From Microcaldota archaeon (lineage in GTDB: Archaea; Micrarchaeota; Micrarchaeia; Micrarchaeales; CABMGC01), in assembly GCA_021851985.1 (NCBI GenBank), contig JAJZOS010000002.1, positions 1 to 27,493 of the forward strand: a stretch of 27,493 bases of DNA, read 5' to 3'. The position numbers and the translations under genes are program-made. Numbering within the stretch: the first letter of the stretch is position 1; every line of letters starts with the position of its first letter. Positions 25,067-27,026 of the stretch are shown here, one piece after another. The notes under the pieces were generated by a model. It did not search any database, was not told where the DNA came from, and was given only the letters and a program-made list of their open reading frames with translations.

Positions 25067-25141
25067 CAAAGCAATCCTGCGTAAAAAAATGTTTCTGCAT
25101 CAGCTTAAATAAACTTCCTTTCAATATCCTACTGTGATTCC

Positions 25142-26017
25142 TTGAAAGAATCTCCTGAAGAAAAGAGAATGCGCATATTGAATCTCGCCAAGGCAAGCTT
25201 GAGCAATGCCTATTCAGGAGACGAGCATTCTATTATACAAGCAATTCTGTCTTTCAATGAGCTGGATAAAACCAGGAATCTCATACATGAAAAGCTTGAG
25301 GAATGGTATGGCATATTCTTCCCGGAGCTGAAGCTTGCAAACCAGCTTACTTATGCCAGGTTCGTCCAGGAGTTTGGCAAAAACAAGAGGGAGGCAGATG
25401 CGCAGAAACTTGAGGATATGCTTGGCGCAGCTGCAGGCCAGGTAAAGACGCAGATAAGCAATTCCATAGGCAGGGATCCGACAGACGAAGAGTATGAAAT
25501 GCTCAATGGACTCGCGGGGCTTGAGCTTAGCATAGCCGAAATGCAGTCTGGCCTGGACAAATACCTTGAATCATCAACTAAAAGGATAATGCCTAATATT
25601 ACATATCTAATAGACTACAAGGTTGCCGCCGAGCTGCTTGCAAAGGCCGGATCACTTAACAAGCTTGCCTTCCTTCCTGCTGGCACAGTGCAGCTTCTTG
25701 GCGCGGAGAAGGCGCTTTTCAAGCATATCAAGTTCGGTTCAAAGCCTCCCAAATACGGCTCCATATTCAAGTTGCAGCAGATAAGCAGCGCAGAAAGGCA
25801 AGATAGGGGCCGCATTGCAAGGATGTATGCTACAAAGATAGCTATAGCTGCAAGAGCTGATGGCATATCAAAGAATTTTATAGCAGACAAGCTCAAAGAG
25901 CAGCTTGACAAGTCAATAAAACAGATGAGGCCAAGGTCAAAGAAGGCAATAGAGGCGAGAAAAGGCAATTTCTCTGGAAATAGGAGATGGAGGGACAGGG
26001 GATACAGGAAGCGCTGA
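25142..26017 (+). CDS. nop5: Nop5 (C/D box sRNP core protein) lacking the N-terminal domain
   Basis: The 291-residue protein matches archaeal Nop5 from its coiled-coil domain onward. FNELDKTRNLIHEKLEEWYG and FFPEL (38-63) start the coiled coil, PNITYLIDYKVAAELLAKAG begins the Nop domain, and LGAEKALFKHIKFGSKPPKY (186-205) is the RNA- and L7Ae-contacting Nop signature. RIARMYATKIAIAARAD and a short basic tail (RRWRDRGYRKR) follow. Nop5 bridges box C/D guide RNA, L7Ae and fibrillarin for 2'-O-methylation. Usual archaeal Nop5 has about 120 more N-terminal residues that bind fibrillarin; these are absent, and stop codons close the upstream frame. The start appears to be TTG at 25142. Fibrillarin, normally adjacent, is not here. 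Confidence 0.82.
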   Translation: MKESPEEKRMRILNLAKASLSNAYSGDEHSIIQAILSFNELDKTRNLIHEKLEEWYGIFFPELKLANQLTYARFVQEFGKNKREADAQKLEDMLGAAAGQVKTQISNSIGRDPTDEEYEMLNGLAGLELSIAEMQSGLDKYLESSTKRIMPNITYLIDYKVAAELLAKAGSLNKLAFLPAGTVQLLGAEKALFKHIKFGSKPPKYGSIFKLQQISSAERQDRGRIARMYATKIAIAARADGISKNFIADKLKEQLDKSIKQMRPRSKKAIEARKGNFSGNRRWRDRGYRKR

Positions 26018-26084: not shown

Positions 26085-27026
26085 ATGGAAAAGAGCATCC
26101 AAGCCAATATCGCATATGCAAATACCAAGTCGCACAAGCATGCAGCCGCAGTAATCATAAAATCGGTGTTATCGGCGAGGCATAAAGTACTGGTTGCTGC
26201 AGCAAGGGGCATTCGCAGGGACAAGCATGAATATGAAAAGCAGATTGCAGAGCAGGCAGCAGATGCAGCAATTTCAATAATAAATGACATAACCGGCAAT
26301 CCCATACCCGTGCCAAAAGTCAACATGGACCTCAGGCGAAGAAAAGCCAGGAAGTGCAGAGGATATTTCTTGCCGTATATCCCTGATAGCGTATACATTA
26401 CCAAAAATCAGTTTGATGTTTCGGATCTTGTGTTTACGGCAATACACGAAGCAGTGCATTATGCAAGGAAAGACATCTTAAATTACAGATCAAATTTCGA
26501 TCAGGTATCTGCACCGCAATCTTCAGCGGCTGCGGTGGAAGAGGGAATATCCAATTTTGTAGCAAATTACGTGATTTTAGGCGATTATTCGGCCATATGC
26601 GGAAAGATTCTACTTTCAGACCATTACGACCACAATTCACTTGAAAATGCCATACTGCTTTACGATGCAATCAAGGCGGACAATAATAAAAAACCAAAAC
26701 ACGTTTTTTCAGGCAAAACGTTCAAATTTTTAACAAGACATAATTACTACGATTCTGGATCCGCAATGACCACATTATTACTGGTATCAAACAATTTTGA
26801 TATAGATGCAATGGTCAAATACTTTCTAACTACCTCCAATTTATCAATATCAGCGCATTTAAGCGAAACGGTATTGCATGATTCAAAAAATGAGATAAGG
26901 TCAAAGCTAGAAAATATCCGCTTGCTAAAGAACATATGCGATGCAGAGGCGGACTCAAGATTTGAGAGGAACGCAATCCATGCAGACCGGATACGGTCAC
27001 TTAACGTTCTGTACAGAAAGACGTAA
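26085..27026 (+). CDS. Putative zincin metallopeptidase (HEAVH, peptidase MA-like)
   Basis: The 313-residue protein has HEAVH (H121, E122, H125), then VEEGISNFVANYVI with E153 as probable third zinc ligand, and YDSGSAMTTLLLVSNNFDID followed by AMVKYFL. This order (HExxH, EG, then a G-containing helix and a second helix) is that of peptidase MA-type gluzincins. The first 90 residues are a basic, Ala-rich helical extension absent from the relative at 36-701. No signal peptide is visible, so it is probably cytosolic, unless the basic N-terminus binds nucleic acid. Substrate unknown. Catalytic residues are seen; activity is inferred. It starts leaderless, 67 bp after nop5. Confidence 0.64.
   Translation: MEKSIQANIAYANTKSHKHAAAVIIKSVLSARHKVLVAAARGIRRDKHEYEKQIAEQAADAAISIINDITGNPIPVPKVNMDLRRRKARKCRGYFLPYIPDSVYITKNQFDVSDLVFTAIHEAVHYARKDILNYRSNFDQVSAPQSSAAAVEEGISNFVANYVILGDYSAICGKILLSDHYDHNSLENAILLYDAIKADNNKKPKHVFSGKTFKFLTRHNYYDSGSAMTTLLLVSNNFDIDAMVKYFLTTSNLSISAHLSETVLHDSKNEIRSKLENIRLLKNICDAEADSRFERNAIHADRIRSLNVLYRKT

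Follow-up and report, generated by a model that had tools for sequence, protein, structure and literature searches.

In Pyrococcus furiosus, the contact of fibrillarin with Nop5 is described, in the part of PMC7089733 that deals with it, as running exclusively through the Nop5 N-terminal domain. The passages of PMC12045711 that concern Nop5 present this N-terminal part as an inactive RuvC that recruits fibrillarin, and they cite Vaysset et al. 2025 on the origins of IS110. In the open-access literature we found no report of a loss of the Nop5 N-terminal domain in Micrarchaeota or DPANN archaea, nor any treatment of Micrarchaeota together with fibrillarin. In their accessible parts, PMC9467602 contains both DPANN and ‘D box sRNA’ in its reference list alone, PMC9258230 mentions fibrillarin merely as a marker gene, and the fibrillarin survey PMC7608942 nowhere mentions DPANN or Micrarchaeota.

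The window analysed here, a stretch of 27,493 nucleotides from a micrarchaeal genome assembly (G000; 881 kb, 33 contigs, 93% complete), carries a short nop5 gene at 25142..26017 on the forward strand, which also holds all parts of the gene given below. Its 291-residue product, read from a TTG start, consists of a coiled coil and a C-terminal Nop domain, and lacks the fibrillarin-binding N-terminal domain. A sequence-only reading had proposed such a truncated Nop5, and Pfam, the NCBIfam aNOP56 profile NF011121, PDB alignments and an AlphaFold model all confirmed it. The frame read from 25109 matches PF01798 (Nop) at 181.6 bits against a cut-off of 25.4, its sole other Pfam match being DUF2179, far below cut-off (12.6 versus 22.8), and PF21572, the N-terminal fibrillarin-binding domain, is absent by Pfam, alignment and NF011121. 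The protein matches positions 124–390 of the 417 in NF011121, scoring 220 bits against an equivalog cut-off of 452 that it does not reach, and the best PDB Nop5 chains align with it from about their residue 123–136 onward. The AlphaFold model (pLDDT 91.8, pTM 0.80) finds its best PDB fold match in residues 110..377 of 3pla_A, and structure search covers the 291 residues wholly with Nop5-type folds.

In classical Nop5, a hinge helix precedes the coiled coil. Both the model (helix H5-24) and the alignment with classical Nop5 indicate that this helix is kept (residues 5–24, 25154..25213), so that the missing part corresponds to about residues 1–105/110; the truncation proposed earlier is real. 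Model helices H27-56 to H115-149 and the match to 3pla_A point to the presence of the coiled-coil dimerisation domain (residues 27–149, 25220..25588), and Pfam, the model and 3pla_A agree on the C-terminal Nop domain (residues 151–266, LLGAEKALFKH...PPKYG, 25592..25939). The chain ends in a basic, Arg-rich tail of low model confidence (residues 267–291, 25940..26014), where pLDDT falls from 74 to 47 over the last 10-residue blocks, and which has counterparts in the tails of relatives. Translation could start at TTG 25142 or at ATG 25169; since relatives conserve the stretch from 25142 onward (P0025 starts with Met in MKESPEAKRRR), we favour the former. The upstream frame is closed, as had been noted, by an in-frame TAA at 25106..25108. 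Elsewhere in the window, two open reading frames (26085-27026 and 36-701) contain HExxH-like motifs (HEAVHYA and HEMFHH) and have a zinc-peptidase-like look; Pfam gives no match for the former and one match below cut-off for the latter.

The loss of the N-terminal domain is real, recurs across the Micrarchaeota genomes sampled and is not an assembly error. We found a Nop match in 56 of 60 relatives and in 138 of 146 Micrarchaeota genomes, a sample drawn from the phylum and all of one class. In the loci collected from these searches, 131 frames matched the Nop core, 128 passed our coverage rule (three were dropped) and 110 were distinct; the N-terminal domain was recognisable in none of the 110, so that the short form is conserved across relatives, an outcome that the sequence-only reading had named as support. 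Fewer than 90 residues precede the core in 99 of these frames, and in the other 11 the N-terminal segment is Arg/Gly-rich (eight) or was judged to be a stray upstream frame (three). Sixteen of the 139 Nop frames listed from the 146 genomes reach at least 380 residues, and inspection of all sixteen rejected a hidden full-length Nop5 among them: eight bear Arg/Gly-rich segments at the N-terminus, six extend into long C-terminal tails and two have an open upstream frame that we take for stray.

The residues ahead of the core number 125 at the median in classical Nop5 (109–137, n = 119 proteins) and 25 (at most 50) in 120 short relatives, and the distance from the preceding stop to the core in 79 named loci has a median of 35 residues, reaching 100 or more in three. 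Among the 120 Nop5 proteins listed, whose given names are mostly those of Thermococcales and Sulfolobales, 119 are 388–431 residues long; the remaining one, P0233, has 292 residues and lies on a 9.5 kb contig. The 79 named short-Nop5 loci are labelled Micrarchaeota, eight of them Marsarchaeota (e.g. L034, L047 and L075), and the Marsarchaeota labels on public records with a micrarchaeal short Nop5 may be wrong.

In an assembly of 33 contigs that is 93% complete, a full-length Nop5 could be hidden by a frameshift, by a misplaced start or by the absence of a contig. We consider this extremely improbable, given that the short form recurs in genome after genome, including the closed chromosome of Micrarchaeum A_DKE (L073, NZ_CP060530.1), where the core begins at residue 27 of a 299-residue frame, and that a profile of the N-terminal domain from 119 classical Nop5 proteins found no convincing domain in 10745 open frames of at least 60 residues in the collected loci. 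The window's genome itself yields a single Nop match. Neither of the findings named beforehand as decisive against a short Nop5, a full-length copy elsewhere in the genome or a sequencing error that conceals the N-terminal domain, was encountered.

The binding partner of the lost domain has been retained. Fibrillarin is not adjacent to the short nop5 in the window, in line with its reported absence from the usual neighbouring position, and is encoded on a different contig of the same genome, which has one fibrillarin match (G000:C27:13711-14343, E 3.3e-75). It exceeds the cut-off in 140 of 146 Micrarchaeota genomes, and reading both match lists shows Nop and fibrillarin together in 134. The window genome's fibrillarin has 222 residues and matches Pyrococcus 1g8a best (204 bits), and all 52 micrarchaeal fibrillarins compared keep the catalytic tetrad (K, D, K, H). 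Fibrillarins of the window's order have AARDQ, SSREQ and similar sequences in place of AQPxQ (L259-L278, L002, L106). We rejected the idea that this change reflects the loss of the contact because it is confined to that order, and most other micrarchaeal families, which also lack the domain, keep AQPDQ or a sequence near it (L119-L148).

Besides the methylase, guide RNAs are present. We found the box C-D'-C' pattern TGATGA-N8-14-CTGA-N2-10-TGATGA in 56 of 60 relatives and its reversed form in none of the 60. The 50 loci examined gave 51 matches at 47 distinct places, and at 44 of these a CTGA, the D box, which is not part of the search pattern, follows 8–20 nt after C'. The window's genome has two box C/D sRNAs. 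One belongs to a family (family A) found by reading, near variants included, in 44 of 60 genomes, with D' guides like GA(C/T)GAGGTATTT and D guides like AAAAGAGAGTCT. In G012, G058, G011 and the window's genome, the D' guide form GACGAGGTATTT pairs over 11 nt with AATACCTCGTC of 23S rRNA; with the D' guide of the window's genome (GATGAGGTATTT) these 11 pairs form too, one of them being G-U. The D guide pairs over 9–10 nt with GACTCTCTT(T) of 23S rRNA, and in the same four genomes the two sites lie 19 nt apart on the sense strand. Shuffled guides reached the score of the 23S match in 0 of 60 trials for D' and 2 of 60 for D. The target stretch looks to us like the helix 69–71 region (E. coli numbering of helices). 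The fifth-nucleotide rule given in PMC7089733, as far as the relevant passage sets it out, would place the targets at U1901 and A1920 of the window genome's 23S fragment, and the pertinent text of PMC7994747 names helices 68–71 of domain IV as an archaeal hotspot.

The second sRNA (family B; G000:C16:12036-12064, L196, and relatives) has a strongly conserved D guide, CGATCTTGAGTG, whose best rRNA pairing is equalled by shuffled strings in 28 of 60 trials; the two guides of the window genome's own copy on C16 stand at 28 and 59 of 60, and we rejected family B as an rRNA guide. The complement of CGATCTTGAGTG may correspond to the anticodon loop of tRNA-Leu(CAA), in which case C34 would face base five of the guide. 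However, eight of the genome matches showed no tRNA, and the collected loci no tRNA-Leu(CAA). As to the rRNA genes themselves, 16S and 23S lie on different contigs in the window's genome (C26 and C18); in G058, whose only contig is C1, roughly 520 kb separates them (777818 and 255837).

With the single described coupling domain gone, the short Nop5 might instead do no more than package or stabilise C/D RNAs, or those of another L7Ae-containing RNP, with fibrillarin working by itself or beside a different partner and guided methylation weak or lost. The shuffle comparisons lend this some weight, since most of the guide strings listed do not beat their shuffles (at most 3 of 60 shuffles reach the score for 13 of 40, and the other 27 have no convincing rRNA target). 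However, the occurrence of family A, with both guides directed at neighbouring 23S sites, in 44 of 60 genomes argues that guide function is under selection, and the catalytic positions of fibrillarin are kept. The related proposal that this Nop5 serves another RNP is likewise disfavoured by a genome that combines those catalytic positions with a C/D sRNA whose guides match 23S rRNA, and by the adjacency of short nop5 and fibrillarin in 5 of 146 genomes. We therefore regard a Nop5 uncoupled from methylation as improbable.

A more serious competitor is a split Nop5, in which fibrillarin is bridged in trans to the short form by a free-standing protein diverged beyond recognition, be it the N-terminal domain or an unrelated substitute. 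Fibrillarin is conserved and the contact is essential elsewhere, which makes such a partner attractive, and the domain evolves fast while the available models are weak, so that a trans version may be hidden: PF21572 gives even P. furiosus Nop5 just 39 bits, and although it yields matches at E ≤ 10 in three archaeal controls, only one is over the cut-off. Against this, PF21572 was over the cut-off in none of the 60 relatives (E ≤ 10 in nine), and a 12-row profile of the N-terminal domain (A3) reached E ≤ 1 in 12 of 146 genomes, none of them convincing. The best A3 match of all (E 0.003) lies in the window's genome, in a potassium-channel-like frame, L215, which was also the best of the 10745 frames searched with the classical profile (whole-frame E 0.0017, best-domain E 0.096). 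In the protein database, A3 matched six proteins; none sits on a contig longer than 10.7 kb, and they are probably fragments.

As candidates for a free domain we read the eight PF21572 loci (L111–L118) and, out of ten A3 loci, the six from L215 to L220 (L221–L224 left out), and rejected them as other proteins, L116 being left without an identity. The readings included radical-SAM methylthiotransferase-like, toprim-like (twice), UvrC-like, RNA polymerase subunit L-like, ABC ATPase-like, acyl-CoA-synthetase-like and potassium-channel-like. A fusion of the domain to fibrillarin was rejected on length, the window genome's fibrillarin having 222 residues and Pyrococcus fibrillarin chains 227–234.

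Gene neighbourhoods bear on the same question. Five genomes (G061, G074, G098, G102 and G124) have their nop5 and fibrillarin matches no more than about 0.6 kb apart, and in four of these pairs no open reading frame intervenes: the two genes overlap by 4 nt in G102 (L139), their frames touch in G074 and G098, and about 160 nt separate them in G061. In G124, a 145-residue frame (L143:1053-1490) without a Pfam or PDB match sits between the two genes, as a trans-acting domain might; it is unlike the N-terminal domain (probability 0.1%) and has no relative in the collected loci, and we keep it as a lead only. No recurrent family of frames below 150 residues was found beside fibrillarin in more than three of 31 loci. 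The commonest neighbour of nop5, a 499-residue protein in 51 of 79 loci, reads like a glycyl-tRNA synthetase. In 12 of the 79 named loci (e.g. L073:9015-9599), nop5 is followed immediately, in the same orientation, by a gene for a protein family of about 186 residues; this family combines a coiled coil with a conserved C-terminal part and does not match the N-terminal-domain profile. Taken together, the separate N-terminal protein suggested earlier was searched for and not found, though the weak models allow for a strongly diverged one, and we judge a split Nop5 rather unlikely, if less so than an uncoupled one.

The terminal segments of the short proteins offer another possible route to fibrillarin. 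C-terminal tails are 46% Lys in classical Nop5, whereas those of the short relatives contain 21% Arg, 12% Gly and 11% Gln. A simple dipeptide count classes as Arg/Gly-rich 33 of the 108 C-terminal tails from Micrarchaeota and 8 of the 110 segments at the N-terminus; at least 20 of the C-terminal tails listed are shorter than 20 residues, so Arg/Gly tails are not universal. The N-terminal cases are RGG-like, run from 107 to more than 367 residues ahead of the Nop core (L241, L243-L247, L251 and L254, in G115, G108, G153, G085, G072, G064, G095 and G076) and, in families f6, f7, f13 and f17, place an Arg/Gly-rich segment at the site of the missing domain.

The domain is missing across the sampled part of the phylum, and the short protein coexists there with fibrillarin and guide RNAs. 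Since none of the three components, guide RNA, scaffold and methylase, has been given up, the sRNP probably works, and fibrillarin is probably held in Micrarchaeota otherwise than through the Nop5 N-terminal domain; among the explanations offered by the sequence-only reading, a different methyltransferase interface would be the best reading. In our model, the short Nop5, although stripped of the fibrillarin-binding domain, scaffolds a functional box C/D sRNP whose duplex fibrillarin reaches without it, an account that we consider about evenly poised between right and wrong. By homology and the structural model, two short Nop5 chains would dimerise through the coiled coil, each C-terminal domain would clamp an L7Ae-bound C/D or C'/D' k-turn, and the guide-rRNA duplex would thereby be laid out as usual. 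Fibrillarin would then approach this duplex without an N-terminal domain, most likely through weak or dynamic contacts with the hinge helix, the coiled coil, the basic and often Arg/Gly-rich tails, and RNA. We favour recruitment by these elements over a partner in trans, and we infer both that methylation itself takes place and the manner in which fibrillarin docks. A bolder version, in which guided ribose methylation proceeds without any fibrillarin-binding domain and RNA together with disordered Arg/Gly tails recruits fibrillarin loosely, is a tentative proposal that we think clearly less probable than the general model.

A lineage that has fibrillarin, Nop5 and guide RNAs but not the domain would show that the fibrillarin–Nop5 contact can be replaced, and makes the short Nop5 a natural system for asking what a minimal RNA-guided methylase needs. 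If the bolder version is right, this would be a natural minimal C/D sRNP that does without the tether for its enzyme known in organisms from archaea to humans. The loss is relevant, too, to the dead-RuvC proposal for the domain, as put forward in the pertinent part of PMC12045711, in that here the domain is gone and the effector has stayed.

Among known Nop systems, archaeal Nop5 (aNop56/58; S. solfataricus 3PLA, P. furiosus 3NMU and 4BY9) is the closest, resembling the short form in fold and sequence from the hinge helix onward; the short form differs in lacking the N-terminal domain of these proteins and, among its relatives, in tails that are Arg/Gly/Gln-rich instead of Lys-rich. The N-terminally truncated Nop56/58 of 3NVI is a laboratory construct, whereas the short Nop5 occurs naturally, as the form that a lineage carries. 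Prp31, a protein of a eukaryotic spliceosomal snRNP, scores 81 bits against the short protein, compared with 166 for Nop5, and Nop5 chains outrank it both by sequence and by fold. IS110-type recombinases (IS621, ISCro4) and TasR of the TIGR-Tas systems share the use of a Nop domain as an RNA-guided scaffold. We rejected them as closer kin, their fold matches being distant; the 50 fold matches listed include no Tas chain, which carries no weight here. These proteins have a RuvC-like nuclease domain beside Nop, which the short Nop5, with PF01798 alone over the cut-off, does not.
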